A stretch of DNA of 10,253 nt from Rhodocyclaceae bacterium. Lineage in GTDB: Bacteria; Pseudomonadota; Gammaproteobacteria; Burkholderiales; Rhodocyclaceae. The translations under genes and the position numbers were made by a program. Location: NCBI GenBank assembly GCA_027325905.1, contig DAIEEM010000175.1:1-10253 (forward strand). The letters are read 5' to 3'. Below the pieces are notes generated by a model that was given only the letters and a program-made list of their open reading frames with translations, had not been told where the DNA came from and did not search any database. This document shows, piece after piece, positions 774-9,919 of the stretch. The stretch's first letter is position 1. The number at the start of each line of letters is the position of its first letter.

Positions 774-998
774 TTAGTTCCCGTGACCCCGGATGACAGC
801 CAGCCGAGCCTCGATACAGGCGTCAACGAATGGCATGATCTTCTGTCGAAGCCTGCTCGGGATGTCCTCGATGCAGTTGATGAAGGCGATTTCTTCCTTG
901 GTCGCGCCGGTATGGTCTCCGGCATCGAATAAGGCGAGGGCTCTTGCCTTGTGACCAGCCGCACTGGCTCCCATTTTGTAGGCGCGCCCGAGTCTCAT
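774..998 (-). CDS. Small hypothetical protein (74 aa), last gene of the transporter cluster
   Basis: I do not recognise the family. The ORF starts 14 nt after the stop codon of the PRC/MgtE-N/CBS gene and has a strong Shine-Dalgarno, AGGAGAT (1005-1011), 6 nt before its ATG, which is the main reason to accept it. The product is soluble and probably helical: a basic start (MRLGRAYKMG), then an acidic-polar middle (AGDHTGATKEEIAF) and a C-terminal helix-like part with FVDACIEARLAVIRG. It has two cysteines (in FINCIED and DACIEA), no signal peptide and no membrane span. Its position suggests an accessory role in the cation-transport cluster, an inference from synteny alone. Confidence 0.7.
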   Translation of the reverse strand: MRLGRAYKMGASAAGHKARALALFDAGDHTGATKEEIAFINCIEDIPSRLRQKIMPFVDACIEARLAVIRGHGN

Positions 999-1012: not shown

Positions 1013-2263
1013 CTAGTCAAGGCGAGGCTTGATGCCCTTGATGTTCCTGAACGCCACCACACCGAGGATATGGTCCTCCGCGTCGGTGACCGGAATGGCG
1101 CGGAAGCTGTAGCGTTCGAACATGTCCGTGGCGTCGCGCAGGGTGTCGGTGGAGTTGAGGCTGCGCACATTGTCGGTCATTACCTCCGCCAGGGGCTGGT
1201 CGGCCTCCGCCACGATCAGGTCGCGGATGCCCGCGACACCCAAGAGGACGCCATCTTCGTCCGTGACATAGACGTACTGGACGACGTCCTTGTCCTTGGC
1301 GAGGTGACGGTAGTTGTCTATCACCGAACGCGCCAATTCCCACGGGGGGCGCTTGATGAAGTCATGGGTCGCATAGAGCAGGATGCTCTCGTCGTGCTCG
1401 TCGATCATCTGCTGGACTTTCGGTGCATCTTCCTGGTCCATCAGCTTGAGCAGTTCGTCGGCATCGGCGGCGGGTAGCGCGGCGAGCACGTCGGCGGCCT
1501 GGGCTGGGCTCATTTCGCCGATTAGCTGGGCGGCGCGCTCGGGTTCCATGGAACTGATAAGTTCGCGCTGGACGCGCGGCTCGACTTCTTCCAGCGTGTC
1601 CGACGCGAGCTCGTGATCGAGTTCGTTGAACACGGCCATGCGCTGGTCGCCGTCGAGTTCTTCAAGGATGTCGGCGAGGTCGACCGGATGGATGTCGTGG
1701 ATGTTTTCCTTCAGTACGTTGAGCTTGACGTGTCCCTTGAAGATGCCGATCTTTTCGGGCAGTGGCTGCACATACATCCACGAGACCGTGTCGCTGTCGT
1801 GCTTGTTGGCGGCGAAAAAATCGGCCAGCTTCCTCAGGCCCATACGGCGCAGCAGGCGGTTGCGGCTGAAATCGACTTCGCTGGCGTAAAGCCTATCGTT
1901 CTGCAACGCGAGCTTGATGTCGTAGACGACCTCGACCTCGTGGTCATCCATATCCAGTATCTTCTTGTCGAGGATGTGCGCCTTGAGCAGGATGGCATTC
2001 TCGGGAGTCTGCCGCTCATACTCGGCGAGGTTGTCGATGTCCGCGACGATCTCCGTGTTGGAGATGAGGCTGATTTTGTCCCAAGGGATCAGCAGCGACG
2101 GATATCCGAAAGATCGGCTGACGACGAGGTGCGTGATCTCCGGCAGCTTGCCGGTTTCGACGATCACGAAATCGTCGAGCTTGCCCACTCGTTCCGTCTT
2201 CAAATAGACCTTGCGTTCGAGTACCTCGCTGAGGAAGAAGTCCTTTTCCAATACCGTGACCAT
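1013..2263 (-). CDS. PRC-barrel / MgtE N-domain / CBS-pair protein, no channel domain
   Basis: A 416-residue cytosolic protein built from the regulatory parts of the MgtE Mg2+ channel. Residues about 16-75 and 100-150 look like two PRC-barrel-type beta segments (VYLKTERVGKLDDFVIVETG; EVEVVYDIKLALQNDRLYAS). Residues about 185-290 are an MgtE intracellular N domain of short helical repeats (HPVDLADILEELDGDQ; MSPAQAADVLAALPAADADE). Residues about 300-412 are a CBS pair (YVYVTDEDGVLLGVAGIRDL; AIPVTDAEDHILGVVAF). No hydrophobic segments follow, so the MgtE transmembrane pore is absent. In MgtE, the N and CBS domains bind Mg2+ and gate the pore. Here, the product probably senses a divalent cation or nucleotide and acts on the Nramp-type transporter encoded two genes upstream. 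The SD GAGGAG overlaps the stop codon of the preceding 57-aa gene, implying translational coupling. Domain calls are firm; the role is inferred. Confidence 0.92.
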   Translation of the reverse strand: MVTVLEKDFFLSEVLERKVYLKTERVGKLDDFVIVETGKLPEITHLVVSRSFGYPSLLIPWDKISLISNTEIVADIDNLAEYERQTPENAILLKAHILDKKILDMDDHEVEVVYDIKLALQNDRLYASEVDFSRNRLLRRMGLRKLADFFAANKHDSDTVSWMYVQPLPEKIGIFKGHVKLNVLKENIHDIHPVDLADILEELDGDQRMAVFNELDHELASDTLEEVEPRVQRELISSMEPERAAQLIGEMSPAQAADVLAALPAADADELLKLMDQEDAPKVQQMIDEHDESILLYATHDFIKRPPWELARSVIDNYRHLAKDKDVVQYVYVTDEDGVLLGVAGIRDLIVAEADQPLAEVMTDNVRSLNSTDTLRDATDMFERYSFRAIPVTDAEDHILGVVAFRNIKGIKPRLD

Positions 2264-2273
2264 CGTGTTCTCC

Positions 2274-2447
2274 TCAGCCCAGCAAGGTGACGAACTTGTA
2301 AACCATCAGGCTTACGAGGAACAGCAGGTAGATCCGGAGCGCCAGCAGCGCCCCTCTCACCGCGCCCGACATCTCGATGTGCGGCTTGCTGTAGCGCTGG
2401 TTGATCTCGTGAATCTTGCGGGCGAAGTTCCTGAACGCGTTTGCCAT
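2274..2447 (-). CDS. Small single-span membrane protein (57 aa)
   Basis: A longer frame opens at 2498, but the start MANAFRNFARK at 2447 is preferred. It avoids overlap with the upstream transporter gene, and a GGAG (2457-2460) lies 9 nt before it, directly abutting the transporter's TAA. The first 30 residues are basic and amphipathic (FRNFARKIHEINQRYSKPHI). Residues about 34-55 form one hydrophobic helix (LLALRIYLLFLVSLMVYKFV), with a likely cytoplasmic N-terminus by the positive-inside rule. The gene sits between the Nramp-type transporter and the MgtE-N/CBS gene with very short gaps, so it is a good candidate for a small subunit or adaptor linking the two. I do not recognise a family. Confidence 0.75.
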   Translation of the reverse strand: MANAFRNFARKIHEINQRYSKPHIEMSGAVRGALLALRIYLLFLVSLMVYKFVTLLG

Positions 2448-2460
2448 GTTCGCGGGCTCC

Positions 2461-3729
2461 TTACTTGAACAGATCAGGGAACATGACGCTGATCCCATAG
2501 AGCGAAGACAGAATTACGATAGCCAGCACGATGAAGCCGCCGACCAGGTTTTCCCACAGCGTATTGCAGTAATCGCCCATGTGCTTCTTGTCGTTGAGCA
2601 AGAGGATGAGGAACACCAGCGCAGCGGGCAGCAGCGTCACCGCGATGACCTGAACAAAAAGAGTGATCAGCACCAGCGGTGCGTTGGGGATCAGTACGAC
2701 GAGGCCGGCGGTGATCAGGGTGAAGAAATAGCTGGCGTAGAACCACGGCGCTTCCTTGATCTTTTGATTGAGCGAGTGTGCCCAGCCGAAGATTTCGCCG
2801 AAGGCCCATGAACTCGCCAGCGAGATGCAAATGGCGCCGAGCAGGCCGGCGTCGAAGAGGCCGATGGCCATGAACGTGCCGACCCAATGGTTGGTCTTCA
2901 GCAGCAATTCAGCCGCCTGCGACGCGCTGTCGATATCGACGCCCTTGAGGACGGTGCCAGTGACGATAACGATGAAAATGGCGACGACCACGGTTAGCGT
3001 CGAGCCGAGCATGGTATCGAACTTGCCCCAGGGGATGTCCTTCTCCTGCAAGCCCTTGTCGACGACCGAACTCTGCTGGAAAAACAGCATCCAAGGCGCG
3101 ATTGTGGTGCCGATGTTCGCCATGAGGAAGAAGAACAGCTCGCCGTTGAAGCCGCCGGGGAAGTTTGGAATCATGCCTTCTTTGAGGATGTCGGATACTT
3201 CGGGGTGCACCATGAACGCGCCGGGAATGTAGATCAGGTTGAGTGCGCAGAACAACATGGCGATCTTTTCCCAGGTCCAGTAGCGACCGTTGAGAACGAT
3301 CATGCCCATCAGCAGCACGACGCCCGCTATGGTGGCCCAGGCCGGGATACCGAAGATGCTGAGCGCCGACGTCATGCCGATGAACTCGGTGACCAGGGTC
3401 AGCCAGTCGACGAACATCAGGTCGATCAGCGAGAACCAACCCCAGAAGGCGCCGAAGCCGTCGAAGATGGCTTCCGCGTGGCCGCGCTTCGTCACTGCCC
3501 CCAGCCGCACCGTCATCTCCTGCACATAGTAGGCGACGGGAACCAGTATCAACAGGAACCAGATCAGGTTGTAACCGTACTTGGCGCCGGTGGCGGCGTA
3601 GGTCGTGATGCCGCCGGCGTCGTTGTCGGCAATCATCACTACCAGTCCGGGGCCGGCGATGACGAAGTAGAGCTGTACCGCCTTGATCCACTTGCGCAGG
3701 CCGTAATAGAGTTTTGAGAAAAAGTTCAT
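2461..3729 (-). CDS. Nramp-superfamily divalent cation transporter with a non-classical metal site
   Basis: A 422-residue polytopic inner-membrane protein with about 11 hydrophobic segments and the Nramp/SLC11 TM1 start, IAGPGLVVMIADNDAGG (residues 24-40). The frame opens further upstream at 3786, but MNFFSKLYYG at 3729 is preferred because the extra residues are non-conserved and overlap the porin's end. The classical TM1 motif DPGN reads D37-A-G-G40: the Asp is kept and the Asn is lost. In TM6, the classical A-x-x-M-P-H reads T208-T-I-A-P-W213, so the metal-selecting Met is Ala211 and the His is Trp. Loss of this Met is known from Nramp-related Mg2+ transporters, whereas MntH-type Mn2+/Fe2+ transporters keep it. 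The linked MgtE-N/CBS gene also points to Mg2+. The superfamily is certain; the ion is inferred. Confidence 0.9.
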   Translation of the reverse strand: MNFFSKLYYGLRKWIKAVQLYFVIAGPGLVVMIADNDAGGITTYAATGAKYGYNLIWFLLILVPVAYYVQEMTVRLGAVTKRGHAEAIFDGFGAFWGWFSLIDLMFVDWLTLVTEFIGMTSALSIFGIPAWATIAGVVLLMGMIVLNGRYWTWEKIAMLFCALNLIYIPGAFMVHPEVSDILKEGMIPNFPGGFNGELFFFLMANIGTTIAPWMLFFQQSSVVDKGLQEKDIPWGKFDTMLGSTLTVVVAIFIVIVTGTVLKGVDIDSASQAAELLLKTNHWVGTFMAIGLFDAGLLGAICISLASSWAFGEIFGWAHSLNQKIKEAPWFYASYFFTLITAGLVVLIPNAPLVLITLFVQVIAVTLLPAALVFLILLLNDKKHMGDYCNTLWENLVGGFIVLAIVILSSLYGISVMFPDLFK

Positions 3730-3757
3730 CGTGATCGCCTGTCGATGTCGTTCGGTT

Positions 3758-5149
3758 TCAGAATTCGAGGTGCATGCGCGCGCCAAGGATGGTGGCCGGG
3801 CCGCGGTCGGCGTTGTAGGCGGGGCTGTAAGCGCGCTGGACGTCCATGGCGACCGATATTTCCTTCGTTATCGCGGCATTGTAATAGCCTTCGAATACGC
3901 GCTCGTCGGCATAGTGGTAGCTCATACCGGCCGGCGGCGCGCCGTCGCCGATGAAGGCGCCCAGGCCGCCAGCAGCGAGGTATTGGCGATGGGTCGCCGA
4001 GAGGCCGTTCTGTACGAGGCCTAAGCCGACGACGTCGTCGGGACGGTTCCACGCCGTACCCTTGAGCGACACGCCGCCCGAGACGGAGCGCTCGACTTAG
4101 GTAAAGGCGTAGGTTTCCGTGGCACCGTCGTTGCGGCTGGCGCGTAGGAAGGCGCCAAGATCGGCGCTCAGCGCCTGCTCCATGTTGACGCCGAGACCGC
4201 TCTTGGTCTGCTCCTTGCGCACATCCGCGACCGAAGGCACGCCGATACTGCCGCCGGCGCGCCAGGCGTCGAGGGCATCCTGGAAGCTTCCCATGCGCGC
4301 GCGGTTGCGGAAGACTAGCAGGCGCACTTTGCCCGGCTGGCCGGCGATCTCGTGCGAGTGTTCGACTTCGATCTGGTCGCCGTAGTGGGCGAAGATGCTC
4401 CAGTCGAGCCGCGGACCGTTCGACTCCTTCGGCTGCATGAAGCGGCCGAAGCGGAAGGCCCAGTCGCCCACATAGTGTTCGAGCGCCGCGCCGTTGGTGT
4501 AGCCGCGCGTATCGGCGGCATAGTCGAAGGCGCCGTAGGTCATCAACGTCCAGTTGAGGAATTGCGTGCGCGGGTCATGCGAGTACGTATTGTTGTCGAA
4601 GATGTCGACCAGCGACACCTTGCCAACCGTCAATACCACGCGATTCTTGTCGACTGCGCCGGCCAACTGGTTCGGTGCCGATTCGACCTGTTCGCTGTCG
4701 CCGCCCAGATTCCACGTATGACGGACGAACAGGCGCGCGGAATAGATAGTGGGATTCGGGCCGCCGCCCTTCTGGTCCTCGCCGTTGGTCAGGCCGCCGA
4801 GACCGTGAAGGTCGGATAGCGACTGGCTCGACGTCATCTCGGGATTGAAATAGAGTTCGCCACCCTCCCACGGGCGTAGGCCCAGGAAGGCTGTGGCCGT
4901 CAGCGTATAGCTGCGCGGTTCGCTCTCGGCGCTGAGGCTGTTGGGGCCGGAATAGGCGGCGGGGAAGGCGCCGTGCCGCTGCCAGATGTAGGTCGACTGG
5001 AACTTGGCGTCGGCATCCTGGCGTTCGGGCGCTGCGGCGGCCGCTTCGTCGGGCGATGTCGCCCAGGCTTCGGGCTGCGGTAGCAGCAGGGGCGCGGCGA
5101 TGATCGCGGCCGCGAAGGCGCGGTGCAAGCGTTGCGTTGTAGCGTTCAT
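3758..5149 (-). pseudogene. OprB-type outer-membrane porin interrupted by an in-frame TAA
   Basis: The first open part (4097-5149, 350 aa) has a signal peptide with cleavage likely after AWA near residue 30, then beta-barrel sequence with alternating polar and aromatic residues (GGELYFNPEM, WALRFGRFM-like strands). It stops at TAA 4097-4099. The frame continues without any shift for 112 more codons through GGVSLKGTAWNRPDDVVG, YLAAGGLGAFIGDG and YNADRGPATILGARMHLEF, ending with the C-terminal Phe needed for barrel assembly. Both parts together give the expected length of about 460 residues for a carbohydrate-selective (OprB-like) porin. TAA replaces a position where GAA would need one base change, so a recent nonsense mutation or a sequencing error is likely. 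The truncated product would lack its last strands and terminal Phe. A ribosome site AGGA lies about 10 nt before the ATG. It is the first gene of the cluster, 28 nt before the transporter. Confidence 0.85.
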
Positions 5150-5472: not shown

Positions 5473-6420
5473 TTACAACTGAACATCGAGCCACACTTCC
5501 AGCCCCTGGGCGTTGAGCTCGATGTCGGGGCCGAAGAAGTCGAGTGCCGCCCGACCTTGCAGCGGCCAGCCCTGCAAGCCGGCCTCGGCGGCGACGATGG
5601 CGGCGAGGCTTTCCATGATGCGGGCCTTGCGATGCGCGCCGGCATTTTTTTCCCGCAAGGCGACCTCGACCTGGGCATCGATCAGCCGGTGCAGGTCGGC
5701 TGCCAGGCGCGGCGTATCGCCGGCCTTGCCGTAGTGCGTGGCGTAGACCGCCTCCGGCGCGAAGGACATGATGCGGTCGATCGAGCGGTGCAGCGCCCCA
5801 GGATCGAACTGCGTCGGCGTCAGCGTCGGGAAGGCATGGCGGCGGCCGTGGGCGTCGAGTTCGCGGAAGATGAAACCGAAGGTGTCGCCGGTGAAGAAGT
5901 GTCCGGTCAGCCCGTCGCGGATGCAGACGTGGTGGCGCGCGTGGCCCGGCGTGTCGAGGAACAGAAGCTCGCGGCCGGCGAGCTCGATGGTCGCGCCGTC
6001 GGGCGTTTCGACGACGCGGTCCTTGGGCACCGGCACGATCTCGCCGTACATCTTGCGCGCCTTGGCCGCGCCATAGACGGCGTAGGTCGCCGTCGTCAAC
6101 TTCGCCGGGTCGATCATGTGGCGCGCGCCGCGCGGATGTACGGTGAGCTTCGCGTTCGGCAGTTCGCGCATCAACGCACCGGCGCCGCCGGCGTGGTCGA
6201 GATGGACATGGGTGAGCACGACGTAATCGACGGCATCGCGGGGGATATCGAGTTCCTCCAGCGCCGCCAGCACGCGCGGAACGCCGGAATTGACCGCCGC
6301 GTCAATCAGCGCCGCGCGGCCGTTATGGACGAGCAGATGGACGGCGTCGAGATGGGCGCGGCCAAAGCCGGAATCTATGGCGTAGATGCCGTGGCCGAAA
6401 TCGGTGAGGTGTTCGTTCAT
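5473..6420 (-). CDS. Metallo-beta-lactamase-fold hydrolase
   Basis: A 315-residue soluble MBL-superfamily enzyme. The zinc ligands are all visible: T-H71-V-H73-L-D75-H76, TPGH160, GDT with D179, and THYG with H229. This set supports a two-metal site, as in glyoxalase II- and lactonase-type members. The substrate cannot be told from the sequence. There is no signal peptide, so the enzyme is probably cytosolic. The C-terminal part after about residue 240 is helical and alanine-rich and may be specific to its subfamily. The ATG at 6420 is chosen because conserved MBL sequence (FGHGIYAIDSGFG) starts directly after it; its ribosome site is weak. It may be co-transcribed with the 63-aa gene upstream, with a 145-nt gap. 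Confidence 0.9.
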   Translation of the reverse strand: MNEHLTDFGHGIYAIDSGFGRAHLDAVHLLVHNGRAALIDAAVNSGVPRVLAALEELDIPRDAVDYVVLTHVHLDHAGGAGALMRELPNAKLTVHPRGARHMIDPAKLTTATYAVYGAAKARKMYGEIVPVPKDRVVETPDGATIELAGRELLFLDTPGHARHHVCIRDGLTGHFFTGDTFGFIFRELDAHGRRHAFPTLTPTQFDPGALHRSIDRIMSFAPEAVYATHYGKAGDTPRLAADLHRLIDAQVEVALREKNAGAHRKARIMESLAAIVAAEAGLQGWPLQGRAALDFFGPDIELNAQGLEVWLDVQL

Positions 6421-6853: not shown

Positions 6854-7417
6854 CTACTGCGTGATGCGCTCCATGATCCAGCGTTTGGTCCGGGCCGCAT
6901 CCATCGGAAACTGGCCGCATTGCATCATCGAAAAGCCGAAGACGTAGGCGTAGAGGAGCACGCTGCGCGCCTTGGCTTCGGCGTCGGGCAGCCCCAGTGC
7001 GAGGAAGAGGGCATGTGTGCAGTCGAGGCGCGTGGCATCGACCGCCTCGACGATGGCGGCGGTGGCGGCGTCCTGGCGCGCCCACATGCGGATGGCGGCC
7101 TCGATGGCGATGCCCTTGCGGTTCTTGGCGGCGGCATAGACGTCGATGGTATGGTGCAGCGCCGCCAGTTCCTGGCCCGGTTCGGCGGCGGTCTGCTTGC
7201 GGATGTCGCGGATGCGGCCTTCGCGCCAGGTGTCGAGCACGGCGTCGACGAGGTCGCGGCGGTCCTTGAAATGCCAGTAGAAGCTGCCCTTGGTGACGCC
7301 CAGCTTTTTCGCCAGCACCTCGACGCGCAGGCCGTCCATGCCGTCGGCGGCGACGACATCGATGGCGCCGTGAATCCAGGCATTGCGGTCGAGGGCGGTG
7401 CGCGGCGCTTTTTCCAT
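6854..7417 (-). CDS. TetR/AcrR-family transcriptional regulator
   Basis: A 187-residue TetR-family protein, the usual length. The N-terminal helix-turn-helix lies at about residues 30-53, with LAKKLGVTKGSFYWHFKDR as the recognition region. The C-terminal, ligand-binding part is helical and typically variable. The frame is open far upstream, antisense to etfB, but the ATG at 7417 gives the normal N-terminus (MEKAPRTALDRNAW). No clear Shine-Dalgarno is seen, so the transcript may be nearly leaderless or weakly translated. It is divergent from etfB, and two similar inverted repeats lie in the gap, one over its own start codon. It therefore probably represses itself and the etf/acyl-CoA dehydrogenase operon, with an acyl-CoA as the likely inducer by analogy with other TetR regulators of acyl-CoA oxidation. 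Confidence 0.9.
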   Translation of the reverse strand: MEKAPRTALDRNAWIHGAIDVVAADGMDGLRVEVLAKKLGVTKGSFYWHFKDRRDLVDAVLDTWREGRIRDIRKQTAAEPGQELAALHHTIDVYAAAKNRKGIAIEAAIRMWARQDAATAAIVEAVDATRLDCTHALFLALGLPDAEAKARSVLLYAYVFGFSMMQCGQFPMDAARTKRWIMERITQ

Positions 7418-7431
7418 ACGGTAGGGTATTG
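7414..7431. promoter_or_regulatory. Operator-like repeat over the TetR gene start
   Basis: CCATAC-N6-GTATTG is a near-perfect 18-bp inverted repeat (five of six arm positions pair). It shares its arms with the site at 7465-7482 and lies 51 bp from it, centre to centre. It covers the TetR gene's start codon and touches the -35 of the etfB promoter, so binding could block both directions. Confidence 0.5.
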
Positions 7432-9253: not shown

Positions 9254-9919
9254 ATGAACTTCCCCGCCGGACTCTTCAGCGATCCCTGGGCCTTCGGGGC
9301 GTTCGTGCCGCTTGCGGCGGTGTGGCTGTGGTGCCTACGCACGGCGCCGTGGAAGCGCCTGCTCGACGGCGCGCAGTCCAACGTCTGGCTCGGCACCATC
9401 GTCACGCTGCTGCTGGTGTGGAGCATGAAGGCCGGTGCCCATCCCGGCCTCAACCTGCACCTGCTCGGAGCCACCGCCTTCACGCTGATGTTCGGCCGCC
9501 AACTGGCGATACTGGGCCTCTCGGCGGTGATGGCGGCGGTGACCTTCAACGGCGGCGCCGGATGGGAGCCGTATGCGCTCAACGTGCTGGTGACGGCGGT
9601 GTTCCCCTGCGTTTTCGCCGACATGCTGCTGCGTATCGTCGAGCGGTACCTGCCGCCGAATTTCTTCGTCTACACCTTCGGCGCCGCGTTTTTCGGCGCG
9701 GCGCTCGCGGTCGTGTCGACGGGCTTTGTGTCGACCCTGCTGCTGTGGCTGGCGGGCGTCTATCCGGCCGACGTACTGTTTTCCGATTACTTCCCGTACT
9801 ACATCCTGCTCGGTTTCGCCGAAGCATGGCTCAACGGCGCGGCCATCACGCTGATGGTCGTGTACTACCCGCATTGGGTCGGCAGCTTCGACGACCGCCG
9901 CTATCTCAACGACAAATAA
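9254..9919 (+). CDS. CbiM/COG3235-like integral membrane protein
   Basis: A 221-residue inner-membrane protein with about six hydrophobic segments. It resembles the CbiM-like membrane proteins (COG3235 type), relatives of the Co2+/Ni2+ ECF transporter components. The supporting signs are the short N-terminus MNFPAGLFS, the H63-P-G-L-N-L-H69-L-L-G motif followed by TLMFGRQLA, and the aromatic [18 protein letters not shown] near the end. True CbiM/NikM proteins start Met-His and use that His to bind metal; here residue 2 is Asn, so Co/Ni transport is uncertain. It starts 16 nt after etfA with no strong ribosome site, so it is probably translated by coupling. No ATPase or other ECF component is adjacent. 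The family call is from motifs, not a search. Confidence 0.7.

Follow-up and report, generated by a model that had tools for sequence, protein, structure and literature searches.

The window, a stretch of 10,253 nucleotides from a Rhodocyclaceae bacterium (contig DAIEEM010000175.1), carries five closely spaced ORFs on its minus strand. From the highest coordinates downward, these are an OprB-type porin gene (3758..5149), an Nramp-related transporter of 422 aa (2461..3729), a 57-aa membrane protein (2274..2447), a 416-aa cytosolic protein with MgtE-type regulatory domains (1013..2263), and, downstream of the latter, a 74-aa ORF with no family match (774..998). The first-pass annotation had read the first four as a porin, an Nramp-fold protein, a small membrane protein and an MgtE_N and CBS protein lacking the pore; these ORFs proved real, and its gaps of 28, 13, 10 and 14 nt are borne out by the coordinates (3758/3729, 2461/2447, 2274/2263 and 1013/998). 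Its count of five genes also holds, but the fifth is the 74-aa ORF, which lies outside the interval 1013..5149 given for the cluster. It was noted that the annotation had overlooked an in-frame stop in the porin gene and a weak PRC-barrel match at the start of the MgtE-like protein, and that it had listed the 57-aa gene but missed its possible rank as the most informative part of the locus.

The transporter (PF01566, 253 bits) has 11 predicted membrane helices in a hydropathy sketch, with its C-terminus predicted outside. Its helix-1 metal-site motif is D37-A-G-G40 (DxxG; 3610..3621, minus strand) and its helix-6 motif is T208-T-I-A211 (TxxA; 3097..3108, minus strand). DxxG on helix 1 with TxxA/T on helix 6 is the signature of the Nramp-related Mg2+ transporters (NRMTs) according to PMC8806188, which also gives the role of Thr224 and the contrasting DxxN-A/CxxM site. 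As had been proposed, the Met that Nramps have in their metal site is replaced; the motif here is TxxA. Directly after this motif stands P-W, at the place of a His in proton-coupled Nramps, and the proton path of helix 6b is lost: W213 and Q218 replace its His residues, where EleNRMT has W and N, while E115 is retained. The stretches DNDAGG and GTTIAPW are common to all 39 complete trio transporters, the 40th being cut by its contig. Among solved structures, the only ones compared, the nearest is 7qia (EleNRMT) at 218.6 bits, followed by the next at 50.9. By its DxxG-TxxA site, its proximity to EleNRMT and its helix-6b losses, the transporter is a member of the NRMTs.

The 416-aa protein, here called the sensor-like protein, comprises a PRC-like region, a linker, an MgtE_N domain and a CBS pair with no membrane pore (Pfam), so the proposal of MgtE regulatory domains united in one poreless protein was upheld. 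The MgtE_N domain (1406..1693, minus strand) matches PF03448 at 88 bits, and at 90.5 bits in the genome search. The second CBS domain (1040..1189, minus strand) matches PF00571 at 45 bits, and the first is seen only through a longer match to the MgtE model TIGR00400 (stretch 172-407, 118.6 bits, below cut-off). The PRC-barrel match scores 20.2 bits against a cut-off of 21.2, and at E <= 0.01 the domain is recognized in 18 of 21 family members in the alignment. Both in sequence and in fold, MgtE cytosolic domains come closest among solved structures, with 19-28% identity to the ten MgtE rows heading the Foldseek list. A motif at residues 99-111, DKKILDMDDHEVE (1931..1969, minus strand), is identical in 38/38 family members longer than 400 aa, the window included, and is a possible metal site; two divergent members keep its acidic residues, with Asn for His. 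At some of the positions that we take to be Mg2+ ligands in MgtE, the sensor-like protein has different residues (A254, S386). A structure model reached pLDDT 73.3 and pTM 0.37; its domain arrangement was distrusted because residues 99-114, which hold the invariant motif, and 130-186 were badly predicted.

Adjacency of the transporter, 57-aa and MgtE_N/CBS genes, on which the first-pass annotation had staked its case, is kept in all 39 related loci whose contigs cover the trio, always in the order NRMT-type transporter, 57-aa protein, PRC/MgtE_N/CBS protein. The search returned 44 loci, and five were dropped from this count: four because the contig runs out within the sensor gene or shortly ahead of it (L007, L039, L041, L042) and L045 as a non-member (27% identity, residues 180-403). 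Among those kept, contig ends cut the transporter of L017 and the sensors of L026 and L043, and the sensor of L040 lies in two frames. Of 398 Pseudomonadota genomes drawn as a sample, seven contained the 57-aa family; the same seven hold the close Nramp, and MgtE_N is adjacent in 7/7. The trio is a conserved core unit, with linkage far beyond chance. Alignments covered 29 of 40 copies of the 57-aa protein (A1), 21 sensors (A2) and 20 transporters (A3); the tree holds 33 hand-chosen sequences, with a root for drawing only and a warning that long branches meet. By identical coordinates, G430 and G061, G400 and G165, and G422 and G149 are the same genomes.

The two outer genes do not belong to this core. 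The porin gene carries an in-frame TAA at 4097-4099, and both pieces match PF04966 (profile positions 21-268 and 270-372); in this assembly it is therefore either a disrupted gene or an error in the sequence. A similar porin lies in 6 of the 44 related loci, a count obtained by searching with the porin pieces of the window, which more distant porins could escape: downstream in L003, upstream in L013, L027, L028 and L035, and as a 21-bit fragment in L026. Another follows one fused NRMT (L073). With a broken frame here and a minority of loci elsewhere, the porin was rejected as the member of the uptake system that it had been taken for and is regarded as an occasional neighbor; a functional porin-NRMT link is possible but weak. 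The 74-aa gene, with relatives in 4/44 loci (L002, L024, L025, L029), was likewise rejected as a core part.

The 57-aa protein has no Pfam or NCBIfam family and was found in 39 relatives; a cultured bacterium that carries the family is [Acidovorax] ebreus. Its sole membrane helix by hydropathy spans residues 32-50 (2298..2354, minus strand). Some NRMTs are longer than the transporter described here, and a single hhalign profile comparison related the 57-aa family to their C-terminal tails (95.9%, E 5e-9), compared with only 0.1% for the NRMT core. When 10,429 ORFs from the fetched loci were ranked, places 42-49, directly under the 41 true members, were all taken by NRMT tails or a small ORF after an NRMT gene. 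In the reverse direction, an NRMT-tail profile run over 200 genomes matched one 57-aa gene (G177, E 4.9e-4); the window's own copy was missed at E <= 0.001. One further match of this profile, in G014, is unexplained. Tail, separate ORF and 57-aa protein share one position, either as the C-terminal end of the NRMT or encoded immediately behind its gene. Topology fits as well, with 11 helices plus one predicted N-in helix in the trio, compared with 13 helices in both fused forms for which hydropathy was plotted. An AlphaFold model of a fused NRMT (pLDDT 55.3, pTM 0.57) was too low in confidence to place the extra helix on the core. The 57-aa protein thus probably corresponds to the additional C-terminal helix seen in other NRMTs, here encoded as a separate chain, and this likeness argues for a transporter subunit. 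Alternatively, rather than staying with the transporter as a subunit, this small protein might anchor the sensor in the membrane or regulate how stable the transporter is, with the tail likeness reflecting a shared helix-packing motif. Small membrane proteins such as MgtS and MgtR do act on Mg2+ transporters, and the direct similarity extends over only some 30-39 columns, with weak scores of 5.6-17.8 bits for single tails. Given the hhalign result, the ranking of the tails right behind the true members and the shared position of all three forms, we consider this alternative improbable.

A conserved IN..Y segment of the 57-aa protein (2391..2405, minus strand), predicted on the cytosolic side, is a candidate docking site for the sensor-like protein. 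The pattern IN..[YF], picked after the alignment had been viewed, is present in 42/42 sensor-linked copies and in 0/10 tails without an adjacent sensor gene; this co-occurrence suggests that the segment may be where the sensor docks. It also bears on whether the MgtE_N/CBS protein has its target elsewhere, in gene expression for instance, and shares no more than a transcript with the transporter. No published transport effect of the corresponding Acidobacterium capsulatum fragment appears in the passages of PMC4072509 drawn on here, which would suit such a role. However, a separate role is very improbable in view of the IN..[YF] pattern, the strict gene order with membrane genes, and the fact that neither Pfam nor NCBIfam gives the sensor-like protein a DNA-binding domain above threshold. 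Its weak NCBIfam matches to CBS-containing regulators fall in the CBS region.

Mg2+ is the likeliest substrate. MgtA adjoins the trio in one locus (L032; TIGR01524, 1154 bits, cut-off 611) and MgtC in another (L031). A further Nramp over cut-off, of whatever kind, occurs in 21 of 35 trio genomes, and therefore the trio is not simply the one MntH of those genomes. The same parts could form a Mn2+ (or Fe2+) importer, in which the MgtE-like protein senses Mn2+ or buffers metal. The transporter of A. capsulatum acted chiefly on Mn2+ (PMC4072509), and EleNRMT carries Mn2+ as well as Mg2+ (PMC8806188). No Nramp other than that of the trio exceeds the cut-off in 14 of the 35 genomes and in all seven of another set, three genomes being common to both sets, and a His lies within the DMDDHEVE part of the sensor motif. 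This His is missing in two divergent sensors, however, the metal site is DxxG-TxxA and not DxxN-A/CxxM, MgtA and MgtC are neighbors, and no Mn riboswitch was found at the loci searched. On balance, we consider a Mn2+ or Fe2+ importer unlikely, though it is the most serious competitor.

Two further lines were set aside. A riboswitch as proof of Mg2+ was rejected: no M-box lies upstream, no Rfam match was obtained in the window at E <= 1, and neither an M-box nor a Mn riboswitch reached the gathering score at 23 related loci. The only Rfam matches at related loci were c-di-GMP riboswitches (L003, L036, L044) and a tRNA (L031). A lack of other Mg2+ importers was not conclusive either. CorA occurs in 18/35 trio genomes (two of them weak, 30-36 bits), MgtE in 8/35 and neither in 13/35, with genome completeness not given for these counts. 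MgtA was over cut-off in 1/7 genomes searched (G177). In one genome that is 97% complete (G061), MgtE was not matched, nothing reached the MgtA cut-off and CorA gave a single weak match, and the two with a divergent trio (G089, G145) each hold several MgtE and one or two CorA.

Because adjacency is conserved and the transporter site is of NRMT type, the locus is best read, as first proposed, as a system for Mg2+ uptake whose MgtE-type regulator is a separate protein, with Mn2+ as the less probable alternative. We somewhat favor a three-part importer of Mg2+, and probably also of Mn2+, made up of the NRMT, the 57-aa subunit and a docking feedback sensor. As EleNRMT suggests, Mg2+ import by the NRMT would be driven by the membrane potential and uncoupled from protons, with the ion keeping part of its hydration shell. 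The 57-aa protein, taken as a subunit and not a free regulator because of the fused forms, would lie with its N-terminus inside, packed on the NRMT as its missing last helix. The PRC/MgtE_N/CBS protein would dock from the cytosol, most likely on the IN..Y segment and the inner face of the transporter, and would close or slow transport at high cytosolic Mg2+, perhaps sensing ATP too through its CBS pair. In the MgtE channel, the same domains close or slow the pore when cytosolic Mg2+ is high. The model builds on observed gene linkage, domain content, the metal-site motif, the tail likeness of the 57-aa protein and the joint presence of IN..[YF] and a sensor gene; substrate, complex, docking site and feedback are inferred from these. 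Counting against it are the missing M-box and Mn riboswitch, the A. capsulatum results, the CorA and MgtE genes of part of the trio genomes, the restriction of MgtA and MgtC to one locus each, the incomplete reverse search with the tail profile and the changed MgtE ligand positions. A bolder and more doubtful reading is that the MgtE gating module has moved onto a transporter of quite another fold (LeuT/Nramp) through a one-helix adaptor, fused as a 13th helix in NRMTs with no sensor gene beside them, and split, with a cytosolic IN..Y docking segment, in those that work with the sensor.

An MgtE-like fragment beside Nramp-related transporters is not the new arrangement it had been called, as it was published in 2014. 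Shin et al. (PMC4072509) reported that most NrmT-group members adjoin a homologue of the MgtE N-terminal cytoplasmic domain, among them the Clostridium acetobutylicum Ca_c0685 and A. capsulatum loci, and speculated on cytoplasmic feedback. Co-expression of the fragment did not improve Mg2+ rescue by the A. capsulatum pair, and its role was left open. In contrast to those NrmT systems, the present locus has no M-box, and a 57-aa gene is not mentioned for them in the passages of that paper drawn on here. What looks new is this protein as a detachable piece of the importer itself: a conserved small partner whose cytosolic segment is seen only with an adjacent sensor gene, and hence a physical handle on the fragment's role. 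Tests of transporter and fragment alone could miss a subunit in bacteria that have one.

EleNRMT (PDB 7qia) shares with the trio transporter the DxxG-TxxA site, the lost helix-6b proton residues and 11 helices, and the passages of PMC8806188 drawn on describe no extra helix or sensor gene for it. The longer NRMTs of Burkholderia and others, annotated as 'NRAMP family divalent metal transporter' or 'manganese transporter', belong to the same Nramp-related group and have the additional C-terminal helix as part of the same polypeptide, with mostly DxxA at the helix-1 site and no IN..[YF] segment; in the nine genomes where the NRMT has such a tail or is accompanied by a small ORF instead, no MgtE_N match lay on the contig of the NRMT. 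The cytosolic part of the MgtE channel (PDB 2oux, 2yvy, 2yvx and others) has the same succession of MgtE_N and CBS pair as the sensor-like protein, which differs in having no pore or plug helix, in its added PRC-like N-terminal half, and in having an Nramp-fold transporter as its genetic partner.

The cluster lies on the minus strand and comprises an OprB porin gene (3758-5149), the gene of an Nramp-fold transporter (2461-3729), the gene of a 57-aa membrane protein (2274-2447), the gene of a 416-aa protein that combines MgtE_N with CBS domains and lacks a membrane part (the sensor; 1013-2263) and a 74-aa ORF (774-998). The intergenic gaps of 28, 13, 10 and 14 nt given in the first-pass annotation were recovered with the same values. 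The porin that it had placed in the cluster is present, but its gene is split by an in-frame TAA at 4097-4099, either a true loss or a draft-assembly error; the genome carrying the window is a 1.67 Mb draft, 59% complete, and OprB porin genes occur without interruption in related loci such as L003 and L013. Near the cluster, a metallo-beta-lactamase-fold hydrolase (5473-6420) and a TetR-type regulator (6854-7423) are encoded on the minus strand. The plus strand encodes, at 9254-9919, a protein resembling CbiM, a membrane protein of cobalt uptake (PF01891, 70.6 bits); its gene lies between electron-transfer flavoprotein-like genes on one side and, on the other, a gene resembling acyl-CoA dehydrogenase, the flank names having been assigned by eye.

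A scan with the 416-aa protein, taking one genome per species, yielded 44 related loci, and the closest relatives returned were draft genomes of Rhodocyclaceae and Gallionellaceae. The adjacency of the three genes implied by the first-pass annotation was kept across genomes, as the order transporter, 57-aa gene and sensor gene was encountered in all 39 loci whose contig spans the site. With the window counted in, the gap between the transporter and the 57-aa gene was 8-18 nt in 38 of 40 cases (exceptions: L010, with a miscalled start, and L036, at -1), and that between the 57-aa and sensor genes fell between -4 and 16 nt in 36 of the 40 (the others being L006, 49; L024, 111; L029, 215; and L040, with the sensor in two frames). 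This three-gene unit, or trio, was found in beta- and gammaproteobacteria, Magnetococcales and Chlorobiaceae. Among 398 evenly drawn Pseudomonadota genomes, seven encoded a member of the 57-aa family, two of these being remote (25.6-28.4 bits); close transporter relatives (593-881 bits; next match 337) occurred in exactly those seven, and MgtE_N adjoined the transporter in each. A large protein set contained 1839 clustered members of the 57-aa family at E <= 0.001; those of the 120 members listed that carried a name were called 'hypothetical protein'.

The closest solved structure to the window transporter by sequence was 7qia, the Nramp-related Mg2+ transporter (NRMT) EleNRMT, at 218.6 bits, with the next structure at 50.9. 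According to PMC8806188, EleNRMT transports Mg2+, DxxG-TxxA is the NRMT metal-site signature, and the exchange of Thr224 for Ala abolished detectable Mg2+ transport. The window transporter matches this signature, with T208 as the counterpart of Thr224; it carries W213 and Q218 at the places of two helix-6b histidines of proton-coupled Nramps and retains the helix-3 Glu as E115. Both metal-site motifs were identical in the 39 complete trio transporters.

The proposed Mg2+ uptake stood in part. The metal site counts for Mg2+, as do two same-strand genes upstream of the trio, one for MgtA (1154 bits) in L032 at a distance of 144 nt and one for MgtC in L031 at 105 nt; a further Nramp over the cut-off in 21 of 35 trio genomes (of any kind; at least one, that of L028, is a fused NRMT) also speaks against a transporter that carries mainly Mn2+. 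Counting against Mg2+ are the lack of any metal riboswitch found in the window and 23 related loci and the presence of CorA in 18 and MgtE in 8 of the 35 trio genomes. The Mg2+ reading moreover needs care because, in Shin et al. 2014 (PMC4072509), the A. capsulatum member gave full rescue of Mn2+ uptake but needed low-millimolar Mg2+ to rescue Mg2+ uptake. On balance we moderately favor Mg2+ with some Mn2+, and mainly Mn2+ is the less probable reading. As a guard against selective picking, 20 neighbor ORFs, mostly same-strand and within 400 nt, were compared with Pfam (L019, L027, the nearest porin of L028, L033, L038 and the 74-aa genes were left out, and the downstream porin of L003 was compared with NCBIfam only). 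Three OprB, one MgtC and one MgtA-type ATPase were returned; the others were unrelated (BacA, OpuAC, MoaC twice, RNase_T, a sigma factor, an ABC ATPase and others) or had no family. It was also noted that c-di-GMP-I type riboswitches lie no more than a few kb from the trio at L003:1175-1257, L036:6011-6097 and L044:8355-8441.

In the 416-aa protein, MgtE_N and the second CBS gave clear matches and residues 7-70 a weak PRC-barrel match, and the closest structures by both sequence and fold were MgtE cytosolic domains. The residues that serve as Mg2+ ligands in MgtE are kept only in part: in our reading of the alignment, Glu59 is replaced by D222, and two Asp ligands by A254 and S386. The 13-residue stretch DKKILDMDDHEVE (sensor 99-111, window 1931-1969) was identical in 38 of 38 members longer than 400 aa, and two divergent members kept its acidic residues with His replaced by Asn. 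No known family was found to account for this stretch, and our guess is that it could bind metal.

We then assessed the 57-aa protein against the next transporter group in the 398 genomes (306.7-336.8 bits), which took two forms. Seven members (L060, L061, L063, L064, L065, L067 and L076) have a C-terminal extension, or tail, of approximately 90 residues, which contains two additional hydrophobic segments in the two fused proteins sketched; in two others (L062 and L066), which have a different metal site, a small ORF follows the transporter. The last tail segment, S..R.WM.VLR.YL...GL...K, is close to the 57-aa protein. In one comparison with nine tail sequences, the 57-aa profile matched the tail profile at 95.9% (E 5e-9, 39 columns); against the transporter core, itself rich in membrane helices, the same profile gave 0.1%. 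Ranking 10,429 ORFs from the fetched loci by their score to the 57-aa profile put the 41 true members first and, at ranks 42-49, solely NRMT tails or a small ORF behind an NRMT, including the second, fused NRMT of L028 that had not been picked beforehand; ranks 51 and 53 were two more tails amid unrelated ORFs at 5-7 bits. The reverse search of 200 genomes with the tail profile recovered the tails and the 57-aa gene of one genome (G177, E 4.9e-4), and did not find the window's own 57-aa gene. A weak match (23.6 bits) within a 482-aa frame was also seen at G014:C1:65981-66199, in a genome otherwise unmatched.

The window transporter has 11 predicted helices, and its C-terminus is therefore predicted to lie outside. 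The N-terminal half of the 57-aa protein is net positive (median +5, 39 copies), and the protein should run from inside to outside. In the fused forms, one more helix returns across the membrane ahead of the 57-aa-like helix, and the topologies agree. A tree built from 33 sequences selected by hand, with a midpoint root and a long-branch warning, grouped all 25 transporters that have the helix, whatever its form, against the eight without it (support 100/100). In L028, the trio is immediately preceded, in the same orientation, by the genes of another NRMT, of the fused type, and of two OprB-like porins (L028:2-4495), which places both NRMT types within one cluster.

The cytosolic half of the 57-aa protein contains IN..[YF], a pattern picked after the alignment was seen, in 40 of 40 main-set copies and both remote copies; it was found in none of ten tails or small ORFs lacking an adjacent sensor gene. 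Nine of these ten belong to genomes without an MgtE_N match on the contig of the NRMT (G003, G004, G059, G163, G191, G312, G324, G345 and G371; G191 has an MgtE-sized match elsewhere), and the tenth is the fused copy upstream of the trio in L028. The simplest reading of this correlation across few independent lineages is that the segment may contact the sensor.

The first-pass annotation had presented a detached MgtE-type sensor beside the transporter as a new arrangement. This claim falls because Shin et al. 2014 (PMC4072509) already report a homolog of the cytoplasmic N-terminal domain of MgtE as a neighbor of most NrmT-group members, and speculate on feedback regulation. The same paper describes such a fragment, without an M-box, for the A. 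capsulatum member, and its addition brought no improvement. Within the open-access papers searched, no small membrane partner of Nramp-type transporters was found described. Several comparisons support the 57-aa protein, for which no description was found, as the likely new component, and the core of the unit is a Mg2+/Mn2+ importer of a type already described, together with the neighbor already described for it.
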